Source of the DNA: Seleniivibrio woodruffii
Lineage (GTDB): Bacteria; Chrysiogenota; Deferribacteres; Deferribacterales; Geovibrionaceae
Direction: 5' to 3'
Assembly: GCF_029267515.1 (NCBI RefSeq)
Contig: NZ_JAJUIS010000003.1
Location: forward strand, 124,001 to 188,000
Length of the DNA stretch: 64,000 nucleotides
The notes beneath the pieces were generated by a model. The model was not told where the DNA came from. It did no database searches and saw only the letters and a list, made by a program, of their open reading frames with translations. Within the stretch, counting starts at the first letter, position 1. Each line of letters begins with the position of its first letter. The position numbers were made by a program, and so were the translations under genes. This document shows, piece after piece, positions 50,836 to 59,222 of this stretch.

Positions 50836-50864
50836 TTGACAATAATTTTTCTTAGGATTAAAAT
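50836..50864 (+). promoter_or_regulatory. Sigma-70-type promoter of ATP-grasp operon
   Basis: TTGACA (50836-50841), 17-base spacer, TAAAAT (50859-50864), 27 bases before the start codon. Confidence 0.75.
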
Positions 50865-50890
50865 TGTCGCGTAAATGTTTGGAGGCAAAT

Positions 50891-52345
50891 ATGTCTATCA
50901 ACTGGAACGAATATGAACCCGGAAGATTTTACGACGAGCTTTTCCAGTCCAAAGGGGTGCCGAGAGAGGCGAGCCGCGATGTTTTCCGCCACCTGCAAAA
51001 CCTTTCCACGCAGGACATCTATAAGAGAAAAAAGACGGCGGATGCCGCCATTGTGGAGCTTGGCATAACCTTCACGGTGTACAGCGACGGCACGAACATA
51101 GACCGCGCGTGGCCGTTTGATATTATCCCCAGAGTGATATGCGGTATGGAGTGGAAACGTGCCGAAGAGGGGCTTAAACAGAGGCTGAAAGCCCTGAATA
51201 TGTTCATCAATGACCTTTACAACTCTCAGGAGATAATCAAAAGCGGCATAGTGCCTGCGGATGTGATAATGACGTCCAGAAATTTCCGTAAGGAATGTAT
51301 CGGAATGACCCCCGCCCACGGAGCATGGGCGAATATCTGCGGAAGCGACATAGTGCGCGACGGCGACGGAACACTTTATGTTCTGGAGGACAACCTCCGC
51401 GTCCCCTCCGGTGTTTCCTATATGCTGGAGAACCGCAAGATAACCAAGAGGGTGTTCCCCGAACTCTTCAAGGACATCAACATCATACCCGTTGACGATT
51501 ACCCCGCGAAACTTTTTGATATGCTGACCTCAATTGCACCCGCCTGTGACAAAGAGCCGGAAATAGTGGTGCTCACCCCCGGAATATTCAACTCTGCGTA
51601 TTTCGAGCACGCTTTCCTCGCTCAACAGATGGGAGCGGAACTTGTGGAGGGCGCAGACCTTTTTGTTGATACCGACGACAAGGTGTACATGAAGACCATC
51701 TCCGGTCTGACACAGGTGGACGTTATCTATCGCAGGATAGACGACGATTTTATCGATCCGGAAGTTTTCAGGGCTGATTCCGCTCTCGGGGTGCCGGGGC
51801 TTATGCGGGCATGGAAAAAAGGGAACGTCGCCATTGCAAATGCACCCGGAACAGGCGTTGCCGACGACAAGGTGGTATACGCATACGTTCCGCAGATGAT
51901 AGAATTTTATCTGGGCGAAAAACCGCTCATTCCCAACGTTGAGACCTATCTCTGCCGCGAAGAAGACCAGAGACTGTTTGTCCTTGATAACCTTGAGAAA
52001 CTGGTGGTAAAACCCGCTAACGAATCCGGCGGTTACGGTATGCTTGTGGGACCCCACTCGACGGAGGAACAGATTGAGCAGTTCCGGTATCTCATCAATG
52101 AAAATCCCAGAAACTATATAGCACAGCCCACCCTCGCCCTGTCGGTCACGCCGACGCTCACGGACAAGGGCACCCTTGCCGGACGGCACGTTGATCTGCG
52201 TCCGTTCATCCTTCAGGGCGAAAGCTCATACTGCACGGCGGGCGGTCTCACCCGTGTTGCCCTGCGCGAAGGTTCCCTGGTGGTGAACTCATCACAGGGC
52301 GGCGGAAGCAAGGACACTTGGATAATCGATCCGGAGGAGGCGTAA
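50891..52345 (+). CDS. Circularly permuted ATP-grasp protein
   Basis: ATG 50891 has GGAGG before; the TTG frame from 50864 is in the promoter. 484 residues with the family phrases MTPAHGAWANICGSD, YVLEDNLRVPSGVSYMLENR, RRIDDDF, VVKPANESGGYGMLVG and RVALREGSLVVNSSQGG. ATP-grasp enzymes form peptide-like bonds. This type co-occurs with an alpha-E protein and peptidases in predicted peptide-synthesis or tagging systems. First of a three-gene operon; product and substrate unknown. Confidence 0.9.
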   Translation: MSINWNEYEPGRFYDELFQSKGVPREASRDVFRHLQNLSTQDIYKRKKTADAAIVELGITFTVYSDGTNIDRAWPFDIIPRVICGMEWKRAEEGLKQRLKALNMFINDLYNSQEIIKSGIVPADVIMTSRNFRKECIGMTPAHGAWANICGSDIVRDGDGTLYVLEDNLRVPSGVSYMLENRKITKRVFPELFKDINIIPVDDYPAKLFDMLTSIAPACDKEPEIVVLTPGIFNSAYFEHAFLAQQMGAELVEGADLFVDTDDKVYMKTISGLTQVDVIYRRIDDDFIDPEVFRADSALGVPGLMRAWKKGNVAIANAPGTGVADDKVVYAYVPQMIEFYLGEKPLIPNVETYLCREEDQRLFVLDNLEKLVVKPANESGGYGMLVGPHSTEEQIEQFRYLINENPRNYIAQPTLALSVTPTLTDKGTLAGRHVDLRPFILQGESSYCTAGGLTRVALREGSLVVNSSQGGGSKDTWIIDPEEA

Positions 52346-52346
52346 G

Positions 52347-53273
52347 ATGCTGTCAAGAGTTGCAAACAGAGTATACTGGCTGGCGCGCTATATGGAGCGT
52401 GCGGAAGATATGGCAAAGCTGGCAAATGTTTATGCCAACCTTATGCTGGATATGCCCAAGGGCACGGACATAGTTTGGTATAACCTTATAACCATCATGG
52501 ATGCGGAGGAATCCTTCGCGGAGCTTTATGATGACAGGTCGGAAACCAGCGTAATGAGCTATCTCATAAGTGACGAGCGCAACCCGTGTTCGCTGTTCTG
52601 TTCCCTCGCCTTTGCACGGGAAAACGCCAGAACCACCAGAGACATGCTGCCCAGCGAGGCGTGGGAGGTGGTGAACGAGCTTTATCTTCTGGCGAAGAAG
52701 GAAAAGGAACACATCGGCACCAGAACCAAAAGATATCAGTTTCTCACGCAGATAATAAGGGGCGGGCAGAGACTTGAGGGGATGCTTGTGAGCGGACTTT
52801 CGAGGAACTCAACATATAACTTTTTACAGATCGGCAGACTCCTTGAGCGGGCGGATACCACCACCCGTATTCTGGATGCGGGTTCTCTTCTTTTGCGGAG
52901 CAGTAAGCTGAAAGGCACAGAGGGGATAGTATGGATGAACCTGCTGAAAGCTATGAACGCTTACCAGATGTACCGTCAGGCTGTGCGCCGGAAGGTCGCC
53001 AGCGCTGATGTCATTGACTTTCTTCTGAAAGATGCTATGTTTCCCAGAGCGGTTGCCTACTGTGCGGAGAGCATTGCCATTCTCGCCGGAAGGCTGCCGA
53101 ACTGCGCACCTGTCGCCGAAAAAGCGAAGGCAGTAAACTGCCTTTTGGAGGGGTTCACGGCGAAACAGGCGGACGTTAAGGATATACATGATTTTATGGA
53201 TAAGACTCAGATAGCATTATACGAAATAGACGCTGCCGTTGCTGACGCATGGTTTAATGCGGCGATAGGCTGA
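52347..53273 (+). CDS. Alpha-E (DUF403) domain protein
   Basis: All-helical protein of 308 residues starting MLSRVANRVYWLARYMERAEDMA, which is the family hallmark; second half has NFLQIGRLLERADTTTRIL and RMPNC-like ends. Always linked to the ATP-grasp partner in other genomes; role not proven. One-base gap from it; stop overlaps the next start. Confidence 0.93.
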   Translation: MLSRVANRVYWLARYMERAEDMAKLANVYANLMLDMPKGTDIVWYNLITIMDAEESFAELYDDRSETSVMSYLISDERNPCSLFCSLAFARENARTTRDMLPSEAWEVVNELYLLAKKEKEHIGTRTKRYQFLTQIIRGGQRLEGMLVSGLSRNSTYNFLQIGRLLERADTTTRILDAGSLLLRSSKLKGTEGIVWMNLLKAMNAYQMYRQAVRRKVASADVIDFLLKDAMFPRAVAYCAESIAILAGRLPNCAPVAEKAKAVNCLLEGFTAKQADVKDIHDFMDKTQIALYEIDAAVADAWFNAAIG

Positions 53274-54301
53274 TGAAAAGATTTTTCTGCTCCTGCGGTG
53301 CGGAGATTTTTTTTGATAATACAATATGCGTTGCCTGCGGGAAGCTGGTCGGAATTGACGTTGTCGGTGCGGAGATGTTTACCCTGAGACACAAGGGAAA
53401 GGGTCTCCTCGCCGCCACCGTGGGTTCAAACACCCGTTATTACCGCTTCTGCGAGCACCGTTCACCCGATATTCTCGGCTGTAATCTGCTCATTCGTGAG
53501 GACGACCCTCACGATCAGTGCGTTTCGTGCAGGCTCACAAGAACAATTCCCGTTCAGGACATACCGAGAAACGTTAAACGCTGGCGTACCCTTGAGGAAG
53601 CGAAAAGACGCATGGTCTTCAATATGTTCCGTCATCACCTGCCGTTTAAGGGCAGGGAGGATGACCCTGTGCGGGGGCTGTGTTTCGACTTTCTTGAGGA
53701 CAGACGCTCAAACCCCAACGTCGCGCATGAAGTTGTTTATACCGGTCACAGCAGCGGCGTAATAACGATCAACGCGGCGGAAGCCGACCCGGAATACCGC
53801 GTTTCCATGCGGGAGGAGATGAACGAACGGTACAGAACCACACTCGGACATTTCCGCCACGAGATAGGGCATTATTTCTTTATGACACTGGTGGAGGGCA
53901 CGAAGTGGGAACGACAGTTCGACGTGCTTTTCGGCAATCATAAAATTGACTACGATGCCGCTCTGAAAGAGTATTACGCAAACGGTCCATCACCTGACTG
54001 GCAGGAACACCACATAAGTGCGTATGCCTCCATGCACCCGCTGGAGGACTGGGCGGAAACGTGGGCGCACTATCTGCACATGATGGACACGCTTGAAACC
54101 GCCATTTCGTTCGATGTCTTCAATATTGATATTGAGCACAGCGATTTCAGATCCGTAATAGGAAAATGGGTGGAACTGACCATAATAATGAACTCGCTCA
54201 ACCGCAGCGTCGGCAAGCCGGATGCCTATCCCTTTGTTCTCAGCAGTGAAGTTTACGATAAGCTGATATTTGTCAGGAACGTTATTCTCTCCGTAAGATG
54301 A
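53273..54301 (+). CDS. Zinc-binding metallopeptidase (Peptidase_Mx family)
   Basis: N-terminal zinc-ribbon (CSCGAEIFF...CVACGKLVG and CRLTRTIP region with further Cys) and a metallopeptidase centre GHFRHEIGHYFF with a downstream Glu in a DWAETWAHYLHMM helix. 342 residues. Overlaps the alpha-E gene. The classical triad partner transglutaminase is missing; this peptidase takes its place in the operon. Confidence 0.88.
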   Translation: MKRFFCSCGAEIFFDNTICVACGKLVGIDVVGAEMFTLRHKGKGLLAATVGSNTRYYRFCEHRSPDILGCNLLIREDDPHDQCVSCRLTRTIPVQDIPRNVKRWRTLEEAKRRMVFNMFRHHLPFKGREDDPVRGLCFDFLEDRRSNPNVAHEVVYTGHSSGVITINAAEADPEYRVSMREEMNERYRTTLGHFRHEIGHYFFMTLVEGTKWERQFDVLFGNHKIDYDAALKEYYANGPSPDWQEHHISAYASMHPLEDWAETWAHYLHMMDTLETAISFDVFNIDIEHSDFRSVIGKWVELTIIMNSLNRSVGKPDAYPFVLSSEVYDKLIFVRNVILSVR

Positions 54302-54616: not shown

Positions 54617-54632
54617 TGGCACGTTTCTAGCT
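54617..54632 (+). promoter_or_regulatory. Sigma-54-type promoter
   Basis: TGGCACG (54617-54623), four bases, TAGCT (54628-54632); fits the -24/-12 consensus TGGCACG-N4-TTGCW except one base. Start would be near 54643, 20 bases before the ATG with GGGGG in between. Confidence 0.6.
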
Positions 54633-54661
54633 AGTTCACCTTCTCGAAACGGGGGTAATTT

Positions 54662-57289
54662 ATGTCTGCTGAAGAAATAGTCACATATAAGGATATCGAA
54701 ATACCTAAATCGCTGCTTGGTGTAATCAACCACATGGACAGTGTTGACGAATACCGCGAAGAGCTGCTGCGGCTTGGCGCGCAGTGGGATCTGCTGACGA
54801 TTCTGGGACAGATGGTGGGTACCGGAACCGATATGACAGGCACCCGCAGGGGTTTTCTTGATTTAACGAACAGGCTGCTCTGTCAGCTTGCCATGGAAAA
54901 TATCAGGAAGACCGTTCAGGAGATAGCTTCAAAGGCACAGGTTGCCGTTGATATTATGATCCGCAACCTTTTCGAGCGTACAGCAGACATTGGTTTTCTT
55001 GCCACCGACGATGATATCCGCGATTTTATAATTAAAAACGAAGAGCTTGACGCACTTTGCAGAAACGGCAGCAACGAACCCGTATGTGACACGCTGAACC
55101 GCACACAGCTTCGCGATGAGATGAAACAGGCTCTCATTGAGCGTTTCCGTGAATACGTTGCGAAATATTCAGTGTATTTCAACATCATTCTTCTGGACAC
55201 GGAAGGGAACGTTCTGGTGCAGATGGATCAGGAGAACAGGGTTACAAAAACTTCCGACCCTCTGGTTCAGGAGGCTGTGAACATTAATGGCGAATATCTT
55301 GAGGTGTACAGATATACAGATCTGATTCCTGATAACGATAAATCACTTATATACGCATACAGAGTGACGCGGAGCAACGAGGAGAAGGAGGACGTTCTCG
55401 GAGTTCTCTGTCTCTGTTTCCGGTTCCGCAACGAGCTTGAGGGTATTTTCCGCAATCTTACTTCCAAAGGCGACTGGTCCGTTAAGCTCATTCTGGATTC
55501 GGACGGGCATGTCATAGCCAGTTCAGACAAATATCACGTTCCCGTGGGTGCTGAGATGGAAATGGCGCTCAATAAGGAATACGGGATAACGGTTTTCGCG
55601 GGTAAAAAATACATTGCAAAAACCTGTCCGACGAAGGGCTATCAGGGTTTTTTCGGTCTTGGCTGGTACGGGCACGTTATGATCCCTATAGAGAGCGCTT
55701 TTGAGATATCCGAGGACAGCGCGGCGAAAAAGAGCATTGACGATAAGATACTGGAAGCCGTTATGAGCGACCCGCGGCTGTTTTCCGGCGAACTGCGGAG
55801 CATTCCGGTTCAGGCGGAAAAGATTCAGAGCGACCTTGAGCGCACAGTATGGAACGGCAACGTGAAAGAGAGCGACCCAGCTTCCAAGGTTCTTTTGTGG
55901 AGCATTTCCGGCACAGGCGCCAAGACCAAAAAGATATTCGAACAGTCCATAGGCAATCTGCACAAGACAGTTATAGATTCGATACTGTCGAACGTCTGGT
56001 TCTGGGCGGCGCTTGCCGTGGACATTATGGACAGAAACCTTTACGAGCGGGCGAACGACTGCCGGTGGTGGGCGCTCACATCCGCCTTTAAGCGCATACT
56101 GGACAAGCCTAAGATAGACGCTGAAGACAAGGAGAAGATAACCGGCATCCTGCAATATATAAACGGGCTTTACACCGTATACACCAACCTGTTCGTATAC
56201 GATTCATACGGAAGGGTTGTGGCGGTTTCGAACCCCACGGAGGAACATATTGTCGGCAGTGTTCTGAGCAAGGACTTTGTTCGCACCACTCTCGCTCTGA
56301 AAGAGAGCTGTCAGTACAGTGTTTCAAAGTTTGAAACAAGCGAACTTTACGGCGGCAGGCATACCTATATTTACGGGGCGGGTATCACCTCTTTCAGACA
56401 GGGAAAGAACGTTCTTGGAGGAATAGGCATAGTTTTCGACAGCGAGCCGCAGTTTGAAGCCATGCTCCATGATGCACTCCCGCGGAATGAGCGCGGTGAG
56501 GTTGAAGAGGGAGTTTTCGGCGTCTTTGCCGACAGAAAAGGAAACGTGATAAGCGCAACCTGCCCTGAGCTTAAAGCCGGAGCCTGTATCGCTGTTGACA
56601 GGGAATTTCTGAACCTTAAAAACGGGAAAGGCATATCTAAAATAATCGAATACAACGGATATTACTACGCTGTGGGCGGGCACGCCAGCAGCGGGTACAG
56701 GGAATATAAGCAGGGTGACGGGTATGAGAACGATGTGATAGCGCTTATTTTTACCCCTCTGGCAAAGGTTTCCGCTGAAAAAGCGTATAACGTGCGCAGG
56801 CGGGGAGACAACGTACGGGTTAAAGCAAATGCTGACGGCAGAAAGACCATAGAGGCGGCAACATTTTACATCGGCACAAAGTGGCTTGGTATAAAAACGG
56901 AAAACGTAGTTGAGGCTATCAATCCCGAAGGTCTAACAACCGTCCCCGGAAGTCATAAATTTGTGAAGGGAAGGCGTATATACAAGGATATGCCGCTGCT
57001 GGTGGTGGACATCCGATCCGTGCTGGACCTGCCTGAAAAAGAGGTGGACAACGACAGTCAGATAATTGTTCTGCGGTATAAAGACGACCAGCTCTTCGGA
57101 CTTATCGCGGACGCTCTGGGTGAAATTCCCCAGATACCTCTGGACAGGGTGGAGTGTTCCGACCATATTCTTGACAACAGCAAATATACCGAGTGTATAG
57201 TTAAACCGGATCCAAGTCAGCCGAACGGTGAGATGCTGATGGTTCTCCGTCCGGAAGGAATAATCGGAAAACTCAGGGAAATGATTTAG
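54662..57289 (+). CDS. Double-sensor (Cache-like) protein with C-terminal CheW domain
   Basis: 875 residues, no membrane segment or signal peptide seen. Two related sensor modules: residues about 90-400 and 440-690, each beginning with a helix of the form VDIM-RNL(F/Y)ER-(A)D (residues near 99 and 455) and holding Cache/PAS-like segments (IILLDTEGNVLVQMDQ, NLFVYDSYGRVVAVSNPTEE). Residues about 730-875 are a CheW domain (FYIGTKWLGIKTENVVEAI, MPLLVVDIRSVL, QIIVLRYKDDQLFGLIADALGEI). There is no MCP signalling domain, so it could dock to CheA or receptors through CheW and carry a cytoplasmic sensor. Followed by no chemotaxis gene. Sigma-54-like promoter. Confidence 0.85.
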   Translation: MSAEEIVTYKDIEIPKSLLGVINHMDSVDEYREELLRLGAQWDLLTILGQMVGTGTDMTGTRRGFLDLTNRLLCQLAMENIRKTVQEIASKAQVAVDIMIRNLFERTADIGFLATDDDIRDFIIKNEELDALCRNGSNEPVCDTLNRTQLRDEMKQALIERFREYVAKYSVYFNIILLDTEGNVLVQMDQENRVTKTSDPLVQEAVNINGEYLEVYRYTDLIPDNDKSLIYAYRVTRSNEEKEDVLGVLCLCFRFRNELEGIFRNLTSKGDWSVKLILDSDGHVIASSDKYHVPVGAEMEMALNKEYGITVFAGKKYIAKTCPTKGYQGFFGLGWYGHVMIPIESAFEISEDSAAKKSIDDKILEAVMSDPRLFSGELRSIPVQAEKIQSDLERTVWNGNVKESDPASKVLLWSISGTGAKTKKIFEQSIGNLHKTVIDSILSNVWFWAALAVDIMDRNLYERANDCRWWALTSAFKRILDKPKIDAEDKEKITGILQYINGLYTVYTNLFVYDSYGRVVAVSNPTEEHIVGSVLSKDFVRTTLALKESCQYSVSKFETSELYGGRHTYIYGAGITSFRQGKNVLGGIGIVFDSEPQFEAMLHDALPRNERGEVEEGVFGVFADRKGNVISATCPELKAGACIAVDREFLNLKNGKGISKIIEYNGYYYAVGGHASSGYREYKQGDGYENDVIALIFTPLAKVSAEKAYNVRRRGDNVRVKANADGRKTIEAATFYIGTKWLGIKTENVVEAINPEGLTTVPGSHKFVKGRRIYKDMPLLVVDIRSVLDLPEKEVDNDSQIIVLRYKDDQLFGLIADALGEIPQIPLDRVECSDHILDNSKYTECIVKPDPSQPNGEMLMVLRPEGIIGKLREMI

Positions 57290-57359: not shown

Positions 57360-58511
57360 ATGAAAGAGATAAACAGGTTTTTTTTACTGGTGGCTGTTTT
57401 TGCCGCTTTGTATTTCACGCCTTTTGAATCTGTGCGTGTTTCCTCCGCCATTCTGGAGGGGTTTTATCTGCTGTCGGAATACGTCCGCCAGCACACGCTG
57501 ACCTGTCTTATCCCTGCACTTTTCATTGCAGGGGCGGTGAGCGTTCTGGTTTCTCAGGCTTCGGTAATAAAATATTTCGGTGCGGACGCGAAGCGCGTTG
57601 CGGCATACGGGGTAGCTTCGGTTTCCGGCGCCGTGCTGGCGGTCTGCTCATGTACTATACTGCCCCTTTTCGCAGGTATCTATAAGCGTGGAGCGGGGCT
57701 TGGTCCCGCCATTGCGTTCGTCTATTCGGGGCCTGCGATAAATATTCTGGCAATTGTGCTCACCGCGCGCATACTCGGTTTTGAAATGGGTGTCGCACGC
57801 GGGGTTCTGGCTGTTCTTTTTTCAATAGTCATAGGACTTGTGATGGCTTTCCTCTTCCGTAAGGAGGAGGCGGAGAGACAGGCGCTTGCCATGCGTGATG
57901 TCAAAGCTGAAAATCTTCTGCCAAAAATCCTATTTTTCGTTGGGATGACCGCTGTTCTCATCTTTGCAACATGGGCGAAACCTCAGACGGATGGAACACT
58001 GTTCTCCGTTATATACGGCACAAAGTGGTACCTTACGTTTTTAAGCCTGTGTGCGGTTGTTCTGATGGCTTTCACCGTTCTGGATGCCGACCAGCGCAAA
58101 ATGTGGATGGAGGAGACGTGGGGCTATGCGAAACAGATAATCCCTCTTCTTTTCATCGGCGTTCTGGCTTCCGGTTTTCTTCTCGGACGTCCCGGACACG
58201 AGGGGATAATCCCTTCGCGATATATAGAGATGTTAGTGGGGGGGAACGGCTTCGAAGCTAATCTTTTCGCTTCTGTAGCCGGCGCTCTGATGTATTTCGC
58301 CACCCTGACCGAGATACCGATATTGCAGGGGCTTATGGGCTCCGGAATGGGCAAGGGACCCGCGCTTGCTCTTCTGCTTTCAGGTCCGGCGCTCAGTCTG
58401 CCCAGTATGCTGGTTCTGCGGAGCATCATGGGAACCAAAAAAACTGTGGCATATGTTCTTCTTGTGATTATTATGTCTTGTACGGCAGGAATGATATTCG
58501 GAAATATGTGA
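57360..58511 (+). CDS. Permease of YraQ/ArsP (DUF318) family
   Basis: ATG 57360 has GCAGGAG upstream; earlier start 57312 is inside the promoter. About nine or ten membrane helices. Motif AVCSCTILPLFAGIYKRGAGLGPAIAF (two cysteines near residue 98) and a second half repeat SGPALSLPSMLV are typical of ArsP/YraQ permeases, which export organoarsenicals or metal ions. Followed by a mini-thioredoxin and ArsC, so arsenic is the likely substrate; Cu/Zn export cannot be excluded. Confidence 0.88.
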   Translation: MKEINRFFLLVAVFAALYFTPFESVRVSSAILEGFYLLSEYVRQHTLTCLIPALFIAGAVSVLVSQASVIKYFGADAKRVAAYGVASVSGAVLAVCSCTILPLFAGIYKRGAGLGPAIAFVYSGPAINILAIVLTARILGFEMGVARGVLAVLFSIVIGLVMAFLFRKEEAERQALAMRDVKAENLLPKILFFVGMTAVLIFATWAKPQTDGTLFSVIYGTKWYLTFLSLCAVVLMAFTVLDADQRKMWMEETWGYAKQIIPLLFIGVLASGFLLGRPGHEGIIPSRYIEMLVGGNGFEANLFASVAGALMYFATLTEIPILQGLMGSGMGKGPALALLLSGPALSLPSMLVLRSIMGTKKTVAYVLLVIIMSCTAGMIFGNM

Positions 58512-58519
58512 GGTTAATC

Positions 58520-58804
58520 ATGAAGATAAAAGTTTTGGGACCAGGATGTGTCAACTGTAAGAAAATGCACGAGATGACCCTTCAGGCGGTGAACGAACTG
58601 GGTATTGATACCGATATAGAATATGTGAACGATATGACTGAGATATCCAACTATATCATGGTGACCCCCGGTCTGGTGGTTGACGAGGTTGTTGTGCACG
58701 AGGGCAAACCCCTGCCCACTGTCAACGAGATAAAGATACTCATCAAACAGAAGATGGCAGCCAAAGGCGGAAGCAGTTGCGGCTGTTCCGGCTGCTGCGG
58801 ATAA
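58520..58804 (+). CDS. Small thioredoxin/glutaredoxin-like protein
   Basis: About 94 residues. ATG 58520 has GAGG upstream. Active site [10 protein letters not shown] (Cys10, Cys13) in the MTH895/TM0996 small redox-protein pattern, with cis-proline segment VTPGLVVD, and a C-terminal metal-like tail CGCSGCCG. These are commonly linked to YraQ permeases. May reduce ArsC or bind metal. Nine bases after the permease, one base before arsC. Confidence 0.88.
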
Positions 58805-58805
58805 T

Positions 58806-59222
58806 ATGAAAAGGGTTCTTTTCGTCTGTGTGCACAACAGTGCAAGAAGCCAGATTGCGGAAAGTTTTCTGAACAGGTTGTCCGGTTTTTCCGCGGAAAG
58901 CGCGGGTCTTGAGCCGGGCAGTCTGAATCCTTTCGTCGTGCGCGCCATGTCGGAGCTGGGTTTTGATATCTCAGCGAACAGAACAAAGAGTGTCAAGGAG
59001 TTCGCCGGACAGGATTTCGACTACGTTGTGGCGGTCTGTGACAAAGAGGCGGCAGACAGATGCCCCGTCGTTCCCCTCAATGGTGAAAAGCTCCACTGGG
59101 AGTTCCCGGATCCGTCGTCGTTTCAGGGGACGGACGAGGAGAAGCTAGCCTTTGCCAGAAGGGTGCGCGACTCCATACTTCAGAAGATTCAGGAGTGGGT
59201 CGTTTTACAAAATTTAACATGA
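58806..59222 (+). CDS. arsC: Arsenate reductase (thioredoxin-coupled, LMW-phosphatase fold)
   Basis: 138 residues. Catalytic loop [10 protein letters not shown] (CX5R; Cys8-Arg14), and redox cysteines 78 and 86 in [14 protein letters not shown], the pattern of thioredoxin-type ArsC. Reduces arsenate to arsenite for export. Third gene of the permease operon; no arsR regulator seen. Confidence 0.93.

Follow-up and report, generated by a model that had tools for sequence, protein, structure and literature searches.

A soluble tandem-dCache protein joined to CheW, preceded by a sigma-54-type promoter and associated with nitrogen fixation

A gene for a soluble 875-residue protein of the domain order dCache-dCache-CheW lies at positions 54662..57289 (+ strand) of the window, by which we mean the whole 64,000-nucleotide stretch of Seleniivibrio woodruffii DNA under analysis; the assignment draws on the open reading frame, Pfam and an AlphaFold2 model. 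We consider it on balance probable that the product is a cytoplasmic sensor anchored through CheW, of the kind represented by CheWS and the CheW-CZB proteins, that its gene is transcribed by sigma-54, and that it is tied to nitrogen fixation. The initial annotation had described the protein as a pair of double-Cache-like sensors fused to CheW, placed it behind a sigma-54-like promoter and linked it to an activator-controlled regulon. The link to nitrogen fixation escaped it, although this link offers a concrete candidate for that regulon.

The open reading frame begins with the ATG at 54662, stops at 57289, and is preceded by a Shine-Dalgarno-like GGGGG (54651..54655); the features of this paragraph lie on the forward strand. 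In the AlphaFold2 model, module 1 opens with a helical hairpin (helices at residues 26-52 and 59-115; 54737..55006), which runs into a near-invariant motif, DIMIRNLFERTADIGFLATD (residues 97-116; 54950..55009; mean entropy 0.27 bits), and is followed by the first dCache module (residues 117-346; 55010..55699; Pfam dCache_1 and the model). The same order then recurs, with a second hairpin (residues 376-402 and 406-470; 55787..56071; the model and the homology of the modules), a second near-invariant motif, DIMDRNLYERANDCRWWALT (residues 454-473; 56021..56080; 0.23 bits), and a second dCache module (residues 474-703; 56081..56770; VIA-align Z 18-20 against DctB and other dCache sensors). The C-terminal CheW domain occupies residues 728-875 (56843..57286). 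The repeated VDIM-RNL-ER helix described in the initial annotation is found as VDIMIRNLFERTADIGFL at residues ~96-113 and as VDIMDRNLYERANDCRWW at ~453-470, and by profile alignment the two modules are duplicates of each other (hhalign probability 99%, E 4.8e-18).

According to Pfam, residues 733-869 match CheW (PF01584) with an E-value of 3e-15 and 56.4 bits against a cut-off of 23.5. The matches of the window protein to dCache_1 (residues 110-327; 38.7 bits against 45) and to Cache_WalK (residues 496-551) fall slightly below their cut-offs; of five relatives scanned at the outset, four exceeded the dCache_1 cut-off (47.5 to 58.7 bits) and the fifth reached 38.1. The initial annotation also held that the protein has no MCP signalling domain, and this agrees with the searches: PF00015 (MCPsignal) gave no hit at E 1 when the window protein was searched, and was absent from the families detected across the 53 members scanned. 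A CheR-like domain likewise had no match in the window protein or in those 53 members, and no NCBIfam family matches the window protein.

Structure prediction and a search for proteins of the same domain order had both been proposed as checks in the initial annotation. The AlphaFold2 model, built from 53 family members (mean pLDDT 83), contains two modules, each a long N-terminal helix followed by paired PAS-like subdomains, which is the arrangement that defines the dCache fold, and it ends in a CheW fold. Module 2 resembles dCache sensors such as DctB (VIA-align Z ~20, rmsd 2.5, 214 residues), and the C-terminal domain resembles the CheW structure 2qdl (Z 17.1, rmsd 2.5, 140 residues), with Z ~17 against CheW structures overall; the list of VIA-align matches was taken up by module 2 and CheW, and module 1 is assigned to dCache through its homology to module 2. 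At least 559 stretches encoding such proteins emerged from the search, of which 80 loci were kept. These belong to Deferribacterota, Thermodesulfobacteriota, Pseudomonadota, Campylobacterota and Verrucomicrobiota, and their products are alignable along the full length; among the 53 members scanned with Pfam, CheW was detected in all 53 and dCache_1 in 51.

The evidence for a tie to nitrogen fixation comes from the phyletic profile and from gene neighbourhoods. NifH scored above its curated cut-off in 38 of 50 carrier genomes, with a partial match in one more, and nifH is absent from at least 11 of the 50 (about a fifth), among them isolates of Methylovorus, Methylobacillus, Malaciobacter and Andreprevotia. 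Because the genomes are related and the counts ignore shared ancestry, the Fisher p-values overstate independence for the enrichments seen in Campylobacterales (nifH in 20/22 carriers vs 26/178 non-carriers, p 6e-13), in a sample of 250 Burkholderiales (17/30 carriers vs 21/220 others, p 1e-8) and in the CheA-positive genomes of that sample (17/29 vs 21/139, p 3e-6). In the phylum of the window, nifH is present in 10/10 carriers vs 12/41 non-carriers. It is conceivable, and in our judgement unlikely, that the protein is a general energy or redox taxis sensor feeding the arrays, with the nif link reflecting the lifestyle of its hosts (micro-oxic, motile, metabolically versatile) and the sigma-54 promoter answering to another activator, for instance a flagellar or NtrC-type one. 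The survival of the nifH association after conditioning on CheA argues against this, as does the family tree, on which nif-negative and nif-positive members are interspersed, with at least six changes.

Gene neighbourhoods in unrelated lineages also speak against a mere effect of lifestyle. Genes of the nif or dra type lie within ~8 kb of the family gene in 17 of 81 loci, many of them on short contigs; the neighbouring genes are mechanical picks of open reading frames, and some in GC-rich loci may be spurious. The nifE gene is 27 bp from the family gene in L046, nifS and a nif ferredoxin are at 202 bp and 430 bp in L035, and in five loci draG is no more than 8 kb away, adjoining in three (70-182 bp in L041, L039 and L021). 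An MCP gene stands directly downstream in L012 and L024 and is followed by nifE. The copy in the window genome is not near nif, which favours the general taxis reading: the family gene is on contig C14, and nif is on C3 and C10. The three consecutive genes upstream (50864-54301) look like genes for circularly permuted ATP-grasp, alpha-E and zinc peptidase-like proteins. Of those downstream (57360-59222), one looks like a permease gene and others like genes for a small redox disulfide protein and an ArsC-type phosphatase; the first two hold the same place in three loci. The nif cluster of the window genome (L105 3739-17015, on G000:C3) comprises NifA, a DraT-like gene, DraG and nifHDKEN. A second NifH above the cut-off is encoded at G000:C10:188307-189125 (L106), close to UAS-like sequences and a site of the sigma-54 type, and is possibly part of a second nitrogenase cluster.

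A sigma-54-type promoter at the window gene is well supported by sequence comparison. The -24/-12 element TGGCACGTTTCTAGCT (TGGCACG-TTTC-TAGCT) is located at 54617..54632 (+ strand), exactly where the initial annotation had placed its TGGCACG-N4-TAGCT; it departs by one base from the consensus (TTGCW) and is the top-scoring of such sites in the window. A GG/GC element with the same spacing lies 42-60 bases 5′ of the start codon in nine Deferribacterota orthologues of three genera, namely the genus of the window and two further genera of its family; L122 is the same gene as L009, and its element is visible when the L009 start is used. Sites scoring at least 5 within 250 bp upstream were found in 27 of 79 members (34%) vs 24 of 854 neighbouring genes (2.8%; p 6e-18) and in 1.3% of shuffled 400-bp upstream regions, the controls being these neighbours and shuffles. 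The element is missing in many Campylobacterota members despite the strong nif link there. Another sigma-54-like site, TGGCACCCACACTGCA, occurs at 1858-1873 of the window.

The identity of the activator bears on the choice between the two readings. NifA is encoded in the window genome (TIGR01817 above cut-off), and the nifH promoter of that genome has the same type of element together with two TGT-N10-ACA sites. NifA is one candidate activator of the window gene, where the 400 bp upstream hold no such upstream activating sequence (UAS); this, and the retention of a -24/-12-like site in the nifH-negative carriers L034, L057 and L058, is in keeping with general energy or redox taxis. The Denitrovibrio orthologue L009 has three TGT-N10-ACA sites upstream. 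Against the general taxis reading, a UAS precedes the gene in 4 of the 29 members with a sigma-54 site, where 0.8 would be expected.

Docking of the family protein to chemotaxis arrays through its CheW domain is consistent with the comparative data, since carriers nearly always have CheA (the CheA dimerisation domain was detected in 29/30 Burkholderiales carriers vs 139/220 others), an MCP gene adjoins in two loci, relatives with an MCP tip exist, and CheWS provides a precedent. It is nevertheless uncertain, because CheW is the least conserved part of the protein (mean entropy 2.34 bits, vs 1.5-1.7 in the well-conserved sensors and 0.23-0.27 in the helix motifs), the N-x-R-G loop is mostly lost, and homologues without CheW exist. 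Among the CheW residues scored (G57, E38 and N60-G63), the invariant glycine is kept and the loop is lost in most members; the window protein has I-Y-K-D in its place. The Glu38-Arg62 pair (E. coli numbering), which is required for the function of CheW and not for assembly (PMC3828127), corresponds to E751 and K775 in the window protein, so that a charge pair remains, and glutamate is paired with arginine or lysine in 32 of 81 members. An altered signalling geometry is possible for the CheW domain of this family, because E. coli CheW R62A has near-normal affinity for its partners and yet impairs chemotaxis (PMC3828127). In the window genome, L112 (G000:C11:371000-384000) contains an open frame of 503 residues in which three CheW domains occur.

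These departures from ordinary CheW also suit a reading in which the domain is a generic docking module with no input to chemotaxis, and the sensor controls, for example, nitrogenase or another kinase. The proximity of draG is compatible with such a role, and so are the CheW-less homologues of Campylobacterales (L125-L130; ~625-675 aa). We think this improbable: the CheW domain is kept in every member scanned, and the near-universal CheA of Burkholderiales carriers and the MCP genes directly downstream in two loci point to chemotaxis, as does the position of one CheW-less gene (L127) in a Campylobacterales genome, where a CheV gene stands two genes before it.

The window protein is predicted to be cytoplasmic, without a transmembrane segment, as the initial annotation had supposed: the AlphaFold2 model of it contains no membrane span, and its peak 19-residue hydropathy is 1.47. 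That it is instead a receptor spanning the membrane through an overlooked helix is very improbable and was rejected on the hydropathy and the model, because the most hydrophobic stretch, residues 437-455, belongs to the long module 2 helix, stays below the usual threshold and runs straight into the near-invariant charged motif DRNLYER, and the N-terminus lacks signal peptide-like features.

The protein can be compared with several known systems. CheWS of Treponema denticola (PMC10653840) is likewise a cytoplasmic sensor fused to CheW and anchored in arrays, and the window protein shares with it the combination of CheW and a soluble sensor with no membrane segment. However, the sensor of CheWS lies on the C-terminal side of CheW and is a CheR-like, SAM-binding domain, for which the window protein has no counterpart, its own two dCache modules being N-terminal; and CheWS is linked to round bodies, whereas the window family is linked to nitrogen fixation. 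The CheW-CZB proteins (named in PMC10653840) also join a sensor to CheW without an MCP domain, but the sensor is a CZB zinc domain in place of tandem dCache. CheV, a modified adaptor, similarly combines CheW with a second domain, which is a phosphorylatable receiver and not a pair resembling ligand sensors. The periplasmic sensors DctB, PctA, Tlp3 and TlpA have the dCache fold in common with the window protein; however, they lie outside the membrane, whereas the window protein is predicted to be cytoplasmic and is duplicated.

The sensor module itself has a counterpart in Alphaproteobacteria, in short MCP-dCache proteins that are likewise soluble (Methylobacterium currus L131, Tistrella L132 and Niveispirillum L133) and whose homologous module shares the NLYER-DVRWW motif (hhalign E 1.6e-30). 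These have one module and an N-terminal MCP tip, whereas the window protein has a C-terminal CheW domain. Plasmid records gave only three partial matches, and it was these that exposed the MCP-tip relatives: the soluble single-module proteins, on three Alphaproteobacterial plasmids, are, within such records, those most closely related to the sensor module. Homologous sensor modules therefore occur with another chemosensory connector. The N-terminal hairpin of the window protein can be aligned by eye with the Alphaproteobacterial MCP tips; derivation from such a tip is not claimed, as profile alignment gives no support.

We therefore return to the cytoplasmic, CheW-anchored sensor as the preferred reading. 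The tandem dCache modules, whose ligands would be one or two small molecules inside the cell, would stand where ordinary receptors have a membrane helix leading into the long sensor helix. The C-terminal CheW domain would anchor the protein in CheA-CheW rings, where changes driven by ligand in the sensor may bias the activity of CheA and thereby swimming. Its gene would be transcribed from the sigma-54 promoter, as the conservation of the element suggests. The likeliest signal may be a metabolic state, or the nitrogen or redox state, relevant to an N2-fixing cell, because the phyletic profile and the gene neighbourhood in many genomes place the gene with nitrogen fixation.

A 2023 survey put the number of undescribed CheW architectures at 30, of which 12 have input domains; in the literature searched, outside which the architecture list of that survey (Fig. 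S10) falls, there was no description of the dCache-dCache-CheW architecture or of its nif link.

Little is understood of how diazotrophs coordinate movement with nitrogen fixation, which is costly and sensitive to oxygen. We propose tentatively, as a possibility that still falls short of probable, that one dedicated sensor, cytoplasmic and under the control of sigma-54, is common to diazotrophs of several phyla; it would read an internal signal related to nitrogen fixation and pass it by way of CheW to the chemotaxis arrays, so that the state of N2 fixation would steer swimming. If this is true, a tandem-dCache input would join the short list of CheW-anchored sensors, and the protein would provide a direct molecular link between nitrogen fixation and movement, approachable in the culturable Rhodocyclus, Propionivibrio and Parazoarcus.
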